Source of the DNA: Corynebacterium bouchesdurhonense
GTDB taxonomy: Bacteria > Actinomycetota > Actinomycetes > Mycobacteriales > Mycobacteriaceae
NCBI RefSeq assembly: GCF_900078305.2
Contig: NZ_LT546028.1
Span: 546,948-610,947, forward strand
DNA: 64,000 nt
Reading direction: 5' to 3'
Each line of letters opens with the position of its first letter. Position 1 is the stretch's first letter. Positions 23,736 through 27,733 of this stretch are shown here, one piece after another. The notes beneath the pieces are model-generated. The model worked only from the letters and a program-made list of their open reading frames with translations. It searched no databases and was not told where the DNA came from. A program made the position numbers and the translations under genes.

Positions 23736-24257
23736 ATGACTCAGAAGACGCAGACCATGACCCTGCACACGAACCACGGCGACATCGTCATCGACCTCTT
23801 CGGCAACCACGCGCCGAAGACGGTGGAGACCATCACCGGCCTGGCCACCGGCGAGCGCGAGTACTCCGCGCAGAACGCCTCCGGCACCAATGAGGGCCCG
23901 TTCTACAACGGCGCGATCTTCCACCGCATCATCCCGGGCTTCATGATCCAGGGCGGTGACCCGACCGGCACCGGCACCGGCGGCCCGGGCTTCCAGTTCG
24001 CGGACGAGTTCCACCCGGAGCTCTCCTTCGACCGCCCGTACCTGCTGGCCATGGCCAACGCCGGCCCGGGCACCAACGGCTCCCAGTTCTTCATCACCGT
24101 GGACGCCACCCCGTGGCTGAACAACCGCCACACCATCTTCGGCGAGGTCACCGACGAGGCCTCCAAGAAGGTCGTGGACGAGATCGCTAACGTTCCCACC
24201 GGCCGCATGGACCGCCCGGTGGAGGACGTGGTGATCGAGTCCGTCGAGATCGCCTAG
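23736..24257 (+). CDS. ppiA: peptidyl-prolyl cis-trans isomerase, cyclophilin type
   Basis: 173 residues, cytosolic (no signal peptide). Catalyses proline isomerisation in protein folding. Cyclophilin motifs: FYNGAIFHRIIPGFMIQGGD, LLAMANAGPGTNGSQFFI, LNNRHTIFGEV. Position near the crgA-pknB block matches mycobacteria. ATG 23757 is a possible shorter start. Confidence 0.95.
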   Translation: MTQKTQTMTLHTNHGDIVIDLFGNHAPKTVETITGLATGEREYSAQNASGTNEGPFYNGAIFHRIIPGFMIQGGDPTGTGTGGPGFQFADEFHPELSFDRPYLLAMANAGPGTNGSQFFITVDATPWLNNRHTIFGEVTDEASKKVVDEIANVPTGRMDRPVEDVVIESVEIA

Positions 24258-24298: not shown

Positions 24299-24324
24299 GC
24301 GTGCCCGGGTTAGGCTGGGCCGCG

Positions 24325-25005
24325 ATGTCTCCGCTGCCCCCCGCCCTCAGAACCCAGTTCAGGGGCGCCCCCGCCACGGCCACCATCGCCGCCGTGTGCG
24401 TGCTCGTGTTCGCGGTCACCGCCGTGCAGGCGCGCTCGCTGACCAACGTCGTCTGGGACTCGCCGCTGGGCGCCGCGATGATCCTCTTCGGCCCGCTTGT
24501 GGAGGGCTGGGGGTTTGCGCGCCCCCTCACCGCCGGGTTCCTGCACTTGGACATCTCCCACCTCTTTGTCAACATGCTGATGCTGGTGTTCATCGGCCCG
24601 CAGATCGAGCGGTACGTGGGCACCGGCCCGTACGCGGTGGCGTATGCGGCGAGCGTGATTGGGTCGTCGGCAAGCGTGCTCGCGTTCAACTTCGCGGTGC
24701 CCACCGCGGGCGCGTCCGGAGCGCTCTTCGCGCTCATCGCTGTGTTGATCGCAGTTGCTTCTCGACGCTCCGTAGACCTCCGCGCCCCCATCGCCCTCCT
24801 CGTGGTCAACATCGCCTACACGTTCCTGGCAGCGAACGTGAGCTTCTGGGGCCACGCCGGCGGCCTGGTGTTCGGCGCCCTGATGGCGTGGCCGCTGACC
24901 TCCCCGCGCCCGCGCACCCGGTGGATCACCGCGGTGGTGGCCCTCGCCGCGGCTGTTGTGGCGGCCTGGGTCCCCACCATCCCGTTGTCCACGCCTATCT
25001 ACTAG
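24325..25005 (+). CDS. rhomboid family intramembrane serine protease
   Basis: 226 residues from ATG 24325, six predicted membrane helices. Rhomboid hallmarks: HLDISHLFVNML on TM2, catalytic Ser in AGASGALFAL, catalytic His in FWGHAGGLVFG. It cleaves membrane proteins within the bilayer; substrate unknown. A GTG at 24301 gives an alternative start eight codons upstream, but it lies against the ppiA terminator. A motif copy (24757-24768) sits between TM segments. The DnaA-box cluster begins at its stop. Confidence 0.88.
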   Translation: MSPLPPALRTQFRGAPATATIAAVCVLVFAVTAVQARSLTNVVWDSPLGAAMILFGPLVEGWGFARPLTAGFLHLDISHLFVNMLMLVFIGPQIERYVGTGPYAVAYAASVIGSSASVLAFNFAVPTAGASGALFALIAVLIAVASRRSVDLRAPIALLVVNIAYTFLAANVSFWGHAGGLVFGALMAWPLTSPRPRTRWITAVVALAAAVVAAWVPTIPLSTPIY

Positions 25006-25263
25006 TTATCCACGGCGTTGTCCCCAACACCACCCCTGTGGGGTTTACCCACAGACCTATCCACATTGTGGATAACTACAGCCGTGTCATTCCTCGAACA
25101 CCCGCTGAGCTGGAACCAAGAAATCCCAGCTCGCGTCGCTTTCGAACACCGCGCCCGGCGGCCCGGAAAAAGTAGTGCACAGCTTTATCCACAGGCTGTG
25201 GAAACACCAGCAACACCAGTACTTTCCACATCCTGTGGACAACCGTCCGATTCCTGTGGATAC
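25006..25263. other. cluster of DnaA-box-like 9-mers (datA/DARS-like or origin-like)
   Basis: Relative to TTATCCACA: perfect at 25185-25193 (+) and 25067-25075 (-). One mismatch at 25006-25014 (+), 25045-25053 (+), 25057-25065 (+), 25234-25242 (-) and 25255-25263 (-). Two mismatches at 24985-24993 (+), 25197-25205 (-) and 25222-25230 (+). This fills most of the 304-base gap between the rhomboid gene and crgA, where I see no gene. The normal oriC of these bacteria is at dnaA, outside the window. Confidence 0.75.
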
Positions 25264-25294
25264 AAAAAGGCCACCGGCGGCGTGCCGGTGGCCT
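25264..25294 (-). terminator. terminator of crgA and the pkn operon
   Basis: AGGCCACCGGC/GCCGGTGGCCT eleven-bp stem with a 5-base loop; followed on the minus strand by TTTTT. Confidence 0.85.
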
Positions 25295-25309
25295 GGGGGA
25301 GCGGGTGTT

Positions 25310-25585
25310 CTAGCGCCAGCCCATGGTCATGAGCAGGCCCGCGATGAGGCCGGCGAAGCCGATGGCGTAGTTCCAGGGGCCCAGCTCAGACAGGAGCGGG
25401 ATCTGGTCCCCGGCGACGTAGAAGACGATAAGCCACGCCAAGCCCAGGATCATCAGGCCGAACATGATCGCCTTGTACCAGGCCGGGGTGCCGCCGGTGT
25501 TGATCTTCACCGGCGTGCGGGAGGCCGACGTGGTGGTGCTGGATACCGGGCGCGCCGCGTCCTTGGTTACCTTTGCCTTGGGCAT
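25310..25585 (-). CDS. crgA: cell division protein CrgA
   Basis: 91 residues: a basic N-terminus ([10 protein letters not shown]...) and two membrane helices ([39 protein letters not shown]) around a short [13 protein letters not shown] loop, exactly the CrgA pattern. In mycobacteria CrgA joins FtsZ, FtsQ, FtsI and Wag31 at the septum. It lies 21 bases downstream of pknB. Confidence 0.93.
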
Positions 25586-25606
25586 TGTGGGTCCTTTCGC
25601 TTCGGG

Positions 25607-27733
25607 TTAGCGGTTCAGCGCCCGCTCCAGGTCACTCTGGATGCGGTCCTGCACGGTTCTTCCGGGCATCGTATCACCGGCTGCGTTGGGCTGGTTCCTC
25701 AGCGGATTGAGCACCGCAGCGTCGAACTTCCACGCGTTGTAGCCGATGGCCTGGTCCTTGCGGATGGTGTTGCCGGCGGGCACCTCCTGGTGGCCGATCA
25801 ACCCCTCGTCCACCAGTGCGCCGGTGGGCACGGTCGGGCCGGCCACCAGGCGGCCCGTCCAGCCCGCCTCGCGCAGAGCGCGGTCCGCGTCGCCCGGGGT
25901 CATGCGGGTGATCTCCGGCATGCTCATCAGCATGTTGTTGGACACGCGTAGCTCGACCGTGGTGCCGGTCTCCACCTCGGTGTTCGCGCCGGCCACGGCC
26001 AGCACCTCGCCGTCGGGGCGCTCCGAGTCCACGCGGGTGACGGTGGAACGCAGGTTGAGCTGGGACAGCGTCGCCGTAGCCTGGTTCACGTTGAGGCCCA
26101 CCAGGGAGGGGATGGTCACCCGCTCGCGGCCGGTGGAGACGGTGATGGTCACCTGCGAGCCCTTGGACAGCTGGGAACCGGCTGCCGGGTACTGGGAGAG
26201 GATGATGTCGGCCGGGATGTCGTCGGAGTGCTCGCGGCGCACGTCCGGGTTCAGCTCCAGGCCGGCCTCCTCCAGCACCCTGGCGGCGTCCTGGGCGGAG
26301 AGGTTGGTCACATCGGGAACGTCGGTAAGCTCGCGCCCCGAAGAAACCGAGAGGGTGATCAGCGCGCCCGGCGGCAGCTCGGAGCCGGCGACGGGGTTGG
26401 TGCCAATGACGTGCCCGCGGGGGATGTCCGGGCTCGGCTCGTCGGAGACCGCCACCTTCAGGCCCGCCTGCTGCAGCTCGTTCACCGCGTCCTGGCGGGA
26501 CTTGCCCGTCACGTCCGGCACCGCCACCATCTTCTCCTGCGTGGTGGTGGGGCCCGGGTCCTCGGAGAAGTAGTTGTAGGCGAACCAGCCGGCCGCGGCG
26601 AGCAGGATCACGCCGAGGACTGCCGCGAGCCACTTCATCCAGCTGGAGCTGGTCTTCTCGTTCGCGCGGCGGTGGTCGGCGTAGCGCGAGGCCTCGGCCG
26701 CCGCCTCGGCGCGGGGCGCGGGCGGCTCGGCGGGGGCCACGGGCTCCACGCGCACCGGCTCGCGGCGCGGCGGCTGCCCGTCGCCGACGGCGGTGGCCAC
26801 CGCGGTGGCGTCGTCCGCGCCCTCGAAGCGGGTGGACCCGCCGTAGTCTCGCTCCGCGGCCGCGAGGTGGTTGCGCGCCGCGTTGGTCACGCTGCCGCGC
26901 TCCAGAAGGGCCAGGTCAGCGCCCATCTCGGTGGCGGTCTGGTACCGGTCCGCCGGGTGCTTGGCCATGGCGGTGAGGATCACGGAGTCCACGTTCACGG
27001 CCTCGTTGGGGCTCAGCTCCGCCTCGATGCGCTCGCTGGGCGGAACCGGGTCCTCCTGCACGTGCTGGTAGGCCACGGCAAAGGGCGACTCACCCTCGAA
27101 GGGCGGCTGGCCGGTCACGGACTCGTACATGACGCAGCCGAGAGCGTAAATGTCGCTGCGCGCGTCGGCCGCCTTGCCCCGCGCCTGCTCCGGCGAGAGG
27201 TACTGCGCGGTGCCGATCACCGCGGAGGTCTGCGTCATCGCCGAGGTGGAGTCATCCAGCGCGCGGGCGATGCCGAAGTCCATCACCTTCACCACGCCGG
27301 TGTTGGTCACCATGATGTTGGCGGGCTTGATGTCGCGGTGGATGATGCCGGCGTCGTGGCTGGACTGCAGCGCGCGGGTGACGGGCTGCATGATGCCGGC
27401 CGCCTCGCGCGGGGTCAGGGGGCCCTCGGCGCGCACGATGTCGCGCAGGTTCCGCCCGATCACCCGCTCCATGACAATGAAGGGCACGTCCACGCCGCCC
27501 ACGTCCTGCGCGCCCGTGTCGTAGACCGCCACAATGTTGGGGTGGTTCAGGCGCGCGGAGTTCTTGGCCTCCTGGCGGAAGCGCTCGCGGAAGTTCTCGT
27601 CGCGCGCCATGTCCACCTTGAGCATCTTCACGGCCACATCGCGGCCGAGCACGGTGTCGGTCGCGGCGTACACGTCGGACATGCCACCGGTGCCGATGAT
27701 GTCACCGAGCTCGTAGCGGTCAGCGATCTTCAT
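25607..27733 (-). CDS. pknB: serine/threonine protein kinase PknB with PASTA domains
   Basis: 708 residues. Kinase domain at about 1-275: GTGGMSDVY, VAVKML, catalytic loop IHRDIKPANIMV, MDFGIA, PEQARG. Then a Glu/Ala/Pro-rich juxtamembrane region and one membrane helix (LAAVLGVILLAAAGWFAYNY, about 365-385). Four extracellular PASTA repeats follow (VPDVTGKSRQDAVNELQQAG; VPDVTNLSAQDAARVLEEAG; IPSLVGLNVNQATATLSQLN; MPEITRMTPGDADRALREAG) that bind muropeptides or lipid II. It regulates growth and division through FHA proteins and is reversed by PstP. The start is 4 bases from the pknA stop region. Confidence 0.96.
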   Translation of the reverse strand: MKIADRYELGDIIGTGGMSDVYAATDTVLGRDVAVKMLKVDMARDENFRERFRQEAKNSARLNHPNIVAVYDTGAQDVGGVDVPFIVMERVIGRNLRDIVRAEGPLTPREAAGIMQPVTRALQSSHDAGIIHRDIKPANIMVTNTGVVKVMDFGIARALDDSTSAMTQTSAVIGTAQYLSPEQARGKAADARSDIYALGCVMYESVTGQPPFEGESPFAVAYQHVQEDPVPPSERIEAELSPNEAVNVDSVILTAMAKHPADRYQTATEMGADLALLERGSVTNAARNHLAAAERDYGGSTRFEGADDATAVATAVGDGQPPRREPVRVEPVAPAEPPAPRAEAAAEASRYADHRRANEKTSSSWMKWLAAVLGVILLAAAGWFAYNYFSEDPGPTTTQEKMVAVPDVTGKSRQDAVNELQQAGLKVAVSDEPSPDIPRGHVIGTNPVAGSELPPGALITLSVSSGRELTDVPDVTNLSAQDAARVLEEAGLELNPDVRREHSDDIPADIILSQYPAAGSQLSKGSQVTITVSTGRERVTIPSLVGLNVNQATATLSQLNLRSTVTRVDSERPDGEVLAVAGANTEVETGTTVELRVSNNMLMSMPEITRMTPGDADRALREAGWTGRLVAGPTVPTGALVDEGLIGHQEVPAGNTIRKDQAIGYNAWKFDAAVLNPLRNQPNAAGDTMPGRTVQDRIQSDLERALNR

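Follow-up and report, generated by a model that had tools for sequence, protein, structure and literature searches.

The DnaA-box cluster between the rhomboid-like gene and crgA

The analysed window, a 64-kb stretch of Corynebacterium bouchesdurhonense DNA (G000:C18:546948-610947, where G000 is the window's genome, an 18-contig assembly), contains a rhomboid-like gene on the forward strand and crgA on the reverse strand, which converge on a dense cluster of DnaA boxes (Table 1). A scan of the window showed 11 nine-mers within two mismatches of TTATCCACA at 24985-25263 on both strands, of which two were perfect, five had one mismatch and four had two mismatches (24985 on the forward strand, and three others given in Table 1). 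The sequence-only reading had counted ten; its numbers of perfect and one-mismatch boxes on both strands were reproduced, but its total was one too low. It had also placed the boxes in the gap between the two genes, which was correct for most of them except the first box (24985), which sits in the end of the rhomboid open reading frame (ORF). Its estimate of 25-30 kb from dnaA agreed with the position of dnaA at C18:543.5 kb and of the cluster at 571.9-572.2 kb, approximately 28 kb right of dnaA.

A comparison of box density across the genome, which had been proposed with that reading, placed the cluster far above chance. The window contained 10 boxes with at most one mismatch compared to 2.75 expected from shuffles; seven of the 10 were inside 25006-25263, and outside the cluster a 300-bp interval held one at most. 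The 2.26-Mb genome had 219 such boxes compared to 77 in the reversed control, and the Poisson probability of seven boxes in 279 bp was 2e-15 per stretch, or approximately 2e-11 genome-wide. Genome-wide grouping, which drew on all 28 perfect boxes and part of the one-mismatch boxes, produced few comparable groups among the matches listed, the other five-box groups being upstream of dnaA and at C18:454545-454832; groups consisting of one-mismatch boxes alone may have escaped it. In addition, inverted pairs of the form TCCACA-N1..3-TGTGGA occurred three times in the whole genome, all inside the cluster, and two inverted pairs upstream of dnaA had N14 spacing.

Table 1. Features of the cluster and its surroundings (positions in the window)
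Feature	Position	Strand	Remarks
Whole DnaA-box cluster	24985..25263	.	11 boxes with ≤2 mismatches
Core module (tandem boxes, inverted box, palindrome)	25043..25102	+	One of 70 aligned elements; model matches
DnaA box TTATCCACG, 1 mismatch	25006..25014	+	
Weak DnaA box TTGTCCCCA, 2 mismatches	25018..25026	+	
Core box 1 TTACCCACA, 1 mismatch	25045..25053	+	
Core box 2 CTATCCACA, 1 mismatch	25057..25065	+	12 bp past box 1 (consensus 13)
Core box 3 TTATCCACA, inverted, perfect	25067..25075	-	1 bp from box 2
Degenerate palindrome AACTACA-N4-TGTCATT	25074..25091	.	Consensus AATTACA-N4-TGTAATT
Second group: perfect box TTATCCACA	25185..25193	+	118 bp from core box 3
Second group: weak inverted box, 2 mismatches	25197..25205	-	
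Third pair: weak box, 2 mismatches	25222..25230	+	
Third pair: box TTGTCCACA, 1 mismatch	25234..25242	-	
Box GTATCCACA, 1 mismatch	25255..25263	-	Adjoins crgA terminator
Terminator-like hairpin and U run behind crgA	25264..25294	-	Between crgA and the boxes
crgA, 91 aa	25310..25585	-	Translation; matched in 150 of 151 genus genomes
Rhomboid-like gene	24301..25005	+	Convergent with crgA; ORF; tblastn match near crgA in many fetched regions
ppiA-like gene	23736..24257	+	ORF; tblastn match upstream of the rhomboid gene in many fetched regions

Among the other box groups, that at C18:454545-454832 had five boxes, three of them perfect, and apparently lies in the gap preceding an ATG, 88 kb left of dnaA. 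Two apparent four-box groups (G000:C16:58290-58456 and G000:C18:990572-990873) lie in what seem to be assembly artefacts with adapter-like sequence, presumably of the Nextera type, and in the latter a long run of G precedes a run of C. In another genome of the genus (G098), 17 forward TCCACA-N1..3-TGTGGA matches were found along the chromosome, 13 of which were TCCACACGTGTGGA, and the remaining 150 genus genomes had 0-6. Contigs C4 and C18 of G000 contained six equal-scoring weak matches to the DnaA-ATPase family, each in a 276-aa frame, which probably encodes the ATPase of an insertion element present in several copies.

Core module and palindrome

The core of the cluster is a module of approximately 50 bp consisting of two tandem boxes, an inverted box and then a palindrome with the consensus AATTACA-N4-TGTAATT. 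In Corynebacterium, 97 elements with a high signature score were reduced to 70 once near-duplicates were removed, and the 70 dereplicated elements aligned across 60 columns: GTTATCCACAnnAGTTATCCACAnTGTGGATAACTACAnTCTTGTAATTTnCCGAAC. Identities inside the anchor are inflated because the 70 elements were chosen by score on part of the motif; with an anchor ending before TGTAATT, this heptamer stood at its expected position without a mismatch in 41 of 63 elements, and with one mismatch or none in 48. The model of the Corynebacterium module (R1) matched the window's module at G000:C18:571992-572048 with an E value of 5.9e-13, and the model of the order-wide alignment (R2) matched it at 9e-12. Both models included the window among their training rows; a profile built without it still matched the module at 1.3e-12. 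The order-wide alignment of 41 sites (AGTTATCCACAGGAGTTATCCACAnTGGGGATGAATTACAnnnGTGTAATTC) was made from 35 of 40 fetched sites (L269-L273 left out) and six from Corynebacterium. Most of its box and palindrome columns carried approximately 1-2 bits of information (two palindrome columns <0.5) compared to at most 0.42 in the flanks. The ACA, TGT and TT of the palindrome were at least 95% conserved in these 41 sites of one order, and the 4-bp spacer was variable.

The conserved ACA, TGT and TT would suit a site for a second regulator that cooperates with DnaA, which is compatible with DnaA assembly on the boxes and which we consider plausible at a little under even chances. ATTACA-N4-TGTAAT with at most one mismatch was also rare, with 2-3 occurrences per genome in five Corynebacterium genomes, and one of these was in the dnaA-dnaN gap in four of the five. 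However, the copies at the crgA site were not among these matches. Moreover, Hicks et al. 2020, who mapped DnaA binding in vitro for Mycobacterium tuberculosis and in vivo for M. smegmatis, treat the palindrome of the mycobacterial site between Rv0010c and Rv0011c as two DnaA-box-like sequences (PMC7738170, drawn on in extract here and below). MtrA was tried as the partner and set aside, as an inverted repeat with N4 does not fit by eye the direct repeat described for MtrA (PMC6265350).

Helical phasing of the second box group

A further forward box was present 60-200 bp past the inverted box of the core in 66 of the 70 Corynebacterium elements. In 65 of these 66 the distance was 105, 114-118, 123-129 or 137-139 bp, and the intervals 119-122 and 130-136 were empty. 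Circular statistics gave R 0.82 near a period of 11 bp, and none of 5000 uniform random sets reached this R, which is not a clean probability because the species are related. A quick two-gene tree, for which 66 of the 70 elements had both genes and 62 rows had a spacing class, showed at least 11 changes of spacing class. As the distance jumps by whole turns, these data point to two groups which apparently must face the same way.

Distribution in Corynebacterium

In the genus, where crgA was almost always matched (Table 1), the window CrgA was 68-83% identical to its 29 best matches in other genomes, and all its matches in named genomes were from Corynebacterium. The cluster was searched in 12 kb on the crgA 3' side of 81 regions, namely the window and 80 of 150 relatives, which were chosen for contiguity and, among 30 loci partly seen earlier, mainly for having no visible cluster. 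At least four boxes with at most one mismatch per 300 bp were found in 63 of these 81 regions. A second collection of 80 named loci gave the same result for 68 of them; this set overlaps the first in species and is not additive to it, and L213 and L190, with 112 bases and 3.3 kb on the crgA 3' side, were scored as misses. The conservation beside crgA in related species, proposed as a check with the sequence-only reading, was thus observed in most of the relatives searched. Among the species with two or fewer boxes were C. stercoris, C. glucuronolyticum (contig cut at 3.3 kb), C. dentalis, C. silvaticum, C. jeikeium and two of the kroppenstedtii group. In some species of the 80 named loci the orientation of the element relative to crgA was inverted. 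The densest of the 80, L175 (Corynebacterium metagenome-assembled genome contig JAUMZY010000002.1), had a 300-bp stretch with 17 boxes of one mismatch or none, 10 of them perfect, and a second stretch with six.

The model R1 matched 143 of the 151 genus genomes at E ≤ 0.1 and 96 at 1e-6. Two genomes (G138 and G068) were negative near crgA, yet had the module 19-21 kb from crgA.

Occurrence in the family, order and class

In the family, R1 matched 137 of 151 genomes and all 31 genera at E ≤ 0.1, a lenient cut since chance alone should give approximately one match in every ten genomes. In one region per genus for 20 genera, selected from good matches, a CrgA match was present within approximately 300 bp of the module in 19, and the twentieth had no recognised gene. 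In the order, R1 matched 73 of 121 genomes at E ≤ 0.01, and CrgA was within approximately 0.35 kb in 18 of 20 regions from six other families and not found in two. In the class, R2 matched 114 of 148 genomes at E ≤ 0.003; in regions from other orders a CrgA ORF was within 0.61 kb in 17 of 20, at 1.7 kb in one, and not found in two. The proximity to crgA is independent evidence because the searches used only the 60-70-bp DNA module.

For large genomes with a weak or no model match (f31, f32 and f33; 18 of the 22 listed genomes examined), CrgA was found in 18 of 18, and the 260 bp past the crgA stop held 2-6 boxes in each of them. These genomes had 58 boxes in 4.7 kb past crgA compared to 17 in the other 54.5 kb (12.4 vs 0.31 per kb), where a box could differ from TTATCCACA or TTGTCCACA by one mismatch at most. 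The crgA site was present in nine of nine examined genomes of family f33. Overall, as judged from sequence and gene order, the cluster appears to represent in Corynebacterium an element that occurs across the class.

Distance to dnaA

The distance between the site and dnaA ranged from 9 to 360 kb with a median of 29 kb, and was at most 60 kb in 35 of 42 genomes. These genomes were chosen for contiguity and include that of the window but not G009, which has no module; the crgA position was used for five large genomes, and the distance for the window uses an approximate dnaA end. In five genomes of family f4 (G365, G311, G377, G296 and G383) the site was 78-360 kb from dnaA, and it still adjoined crgA in G365, G377 and G296, for which regions were fetched, so that in f4 the linkage to crgA outlasts closeness to oriC. 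In some Corynebacterium genomes the site was away from crgA but still near dnaA. Neither linkage is absolute.

With this median the site is usually copied early, as would be expected of a datA-like or titrating brake, in which the site is doubled early, soaks up or inactivates ATP-DnaA and blocks re-initiation. Of the control sites of Escherichia coli, datA is the one close to oriC, and cells that lose it initiate at the wrong time (PMC4585315 and PMC10950094, both in extract). However, titration needs affinity and not the fixed geometry and helical phase found here, which pure titration explains poorly, and the f4 genomes keep the site far from dnaA. In addition, variants of the mycobacterial site resemble dnaA variants and are likened by their authors to reduced DnaA activity (PMC7738170). 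A brake is considered possible, at clearly less than even chances.

Relation to oriC

TGTAATT motifs were found in the dnaA-dnaN gap of five Corynebacterium genomes, and in at least three of them (G006, G016 and G098) two tandem boxes directly preceded the motif. A profile built without these five genomes had the dnaA-dnaN gap as its best match outside the element in G006 (9e-4), G016 (0.004) and G098 (0.006), on the same strand and over nearly the full length, and matched the gap weakly in G117 and G000. The ungapped signature search had missed this relative at oriC, probably from the length difference, and the gapped profile found it. Outside Corynebacterium, 20 stretches of 1.6 kb downstream of dnaA, drawn from other genera, families and orders, all lacked the exact palindrome pattern, and one of them had a lone TGTAATT. 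On this ground the site as a duplicate of oriC was rejected as a general reading; counted against dropping it, the box part of the model matched some of the 20 stretches (L330 at 1.4e-7, L314 at 2.7e-7 and L316 at 4.5e-6). The palindrome shared with oriC looks like a corynebacterial feature, and if the sharing is so limited the crgA site would not be simply a copy of oriC.

The sequence-only reading had also suggested a displaced or bipartite origin. In five stretches of 24-39 kb the net GC skew from dnaA to the cluster was near zero (+116, +268, +126, -22 and -19 bases), and in all five the skew rose from low or negative values over the 5 kb on the left side to higher values on the right side of the cluster, where the gene direction also changes. 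The net skew, its rise across the cluster and the related module in the dnaA-dnaN gap would fit an opening of the DNA by DnaA at the cluster as a second, displaced or bipartite origin. However, the cumulative skew minimum was never at the cluster, being at most 12.4 kb from dnaA in four stretches and at the stretch edge in one, and the exact palindrome was missing downstream of dnaA outside Corynebacterium. A DnaA-trio unwinding element was also rejected, as no kept triplet run was seen by eye beside the boxes when compared with the pattern in PMC8287927; with the variable 4-bp spacer of the palindrome, none seems to be kept. The net skew thus left some room for that suggestion and the position of the minimum did not agree with it; a second origin here is improbable.

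Neighbouring genes and local control

The names of the rhomboid gene and the ppiA-like gene (Table 1) are provisional, the former following the sequence-only reading. Because a cell-division gene usually adjoins the site, DnaA or another regulator could govern crgA, the rhomboid gene or a small RNA from here, and a later paper reported that HigA2 of M. tuberculosis binds the same mycobacterial site and affects Rv0010c (PMC11205783, in extract). However, both genes end at the cluster, no promoter-like site was found in 24900-25700, and the element is inverted in some species. The expression of the genes flanking the mycobacterial site was unchanged in dnaA mutants, according to the extract of PMC7738170. 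An RNA element was rejected on two sub-threshold Rfam matches to small nucleolar RNAs and on the palindrome columns, in which alone pairs were tested and which showed no covariation (83.3% paired compared to 85.1% shuffled). Neither neighbour is obviously in need of a regulator binding here, and local gene control is disfavoured as very improbable.

Proposed function

The sequence, geometry, phasing and position of the site are conserved. We consider it probable that the site is an ancient place of DnaA assembly outside oriC that acts on DnaA itself, of which the Corynebacterium cluster is one form. DnaA would bind the tandem and inverted boxes of the core and, in Corynebacterium, also the second group approximately 10-13 helical turns away; both groups would then face the same side of the DNA and be kept together in a complex that is compact or looped. 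This complex is predicted to act in trans on the nucleotide state of DnaA or on its availability to oriC, and not on the neighbouring genes, and the palindrome would serve as two weak DnaA sites or be bound by a partner protein.

Several observations weigh against this proposal. Three or fewer boxes were found in 18 of the 81 Corynebacterium regions and no module match at E ≤ 1e-6 in 55 of the 151 genus genomes; some lineages thus lack the site or have it in a form that was not recognised, and it is probably dispensable. The palindrome at the crgA site of the five Corynebacterium genomes compared was too degenerate for detection with at most one mismatch, and all three sets of 20 regions beyond the genus were selected from matches. 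The equation with the mycobacterial site is based on its place, the description in the paper and the presence of the module next to crgA in 19 of 20 other genera of the family, and the literature searched gave no DnaA-binding data for Corynebacterium. The initiation rate was unchanged in variants of the mycobacterial site (PMC7738170, in extract). Finally, the site is nearer oriC than DnaA-reactivating sequences (DARS) are, a closeness that fits better to a datA-like brake, although the five f4 genomes have the site 78-360 kb from dnaA.

The sequence-only reading had named datA-like and DARS-like action side by side. A control site for DnaA outside oriC is well supported by the module geometry, the place beside crgA and the mycobacterial binding. 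Given the opposed boxes in the three-box core and the variants resembling low DnaA activity, we lean narrowly and tentatively, by analogy and at less than even chances, to reactivation as at DARS of E. coli over a datA-like or titrating brake. A wider proposal, to which we would give somewhat less than even chances, is that one DnaA device older than the split of the sampled orders sits behind crgA in much of the class as a main control of DnaA, working as a phased complex, and that Corynebacterium enlarged it and shares its palindrome with oriC.

To our knowledge, the control of DnaA after initiation in actinobacteria is poorly known. The site is a short, probably dispensable DNA element with listed conserved positions which is accessible to experiment, and the one-turn phasing gives a sharp prediction. 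If the proposal is true, the isolated mycobacterial site linked to isoniazid susceptibility (PMC7738170) would be one case of a class-wide element.

Comparison with known systems

The comparisons with E. coli and mycobacteria were made by description, from extracts of the published accounts. The core has an opposed pair and one more box, which by description resembles DARS1 and DARS2 of E. coli, where two boxes of a three-box core are opposed (PMC8682772); DARS2 depends in addition on an accessory region placed at a set distance. On the E. coli map DARS are farther from oriC than datA, and DARS2 uses integration host factor (IHF) and Fis. Like the present site, datA is a non-coding DnaA-box cluster with a conserved position; it is the E. 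coli control site nearest oriC, needs an IHF site and promotes DnaA-ATP hydrolysis. It differs in having another neighbourhood and in lying approximately 10 map minutes from oriC compared to approximately 28 kb for the present site. In Streptomyces, DnaA-box clusters near oriC reportedly affect the initiation frequency (work attributed to Smulczyk-Krawczyszyn, 2006), which may cover the crgA site, and deletion of a DnaA-box cluster is said to raise initiation.

The closest counterpart is the mycobacterial site. DnaA of M. tuberculosis binds between Rv0010c and Rv0011c in vitro, the homologous site of M. smegmatis is bound in vivo, and the site is one of five high-affinity DnaA regions (PMC7738170). 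Recurrent clinical mutations hit its palindrome, and its variants have longer cells and altered isoniazid susceptibility, as dnaA variants do (PMC7738170). No description of the site outside mycobacteria was found in the literature searched, a search in which most subscription journals fall outside. Rv0011c is crgA, corresponding to cg0055 of C. glutamicum (PMC3989709, in extract), so that the window has its cluster on the crgA 3' side as at Rv0010c-Rv0011c, and both sites have a palindrome among DnaA-box-like sequences. The Corynebacterium cluster differs in being larger, in its phased extra groups of boxes and in its rhomboid neighbour.
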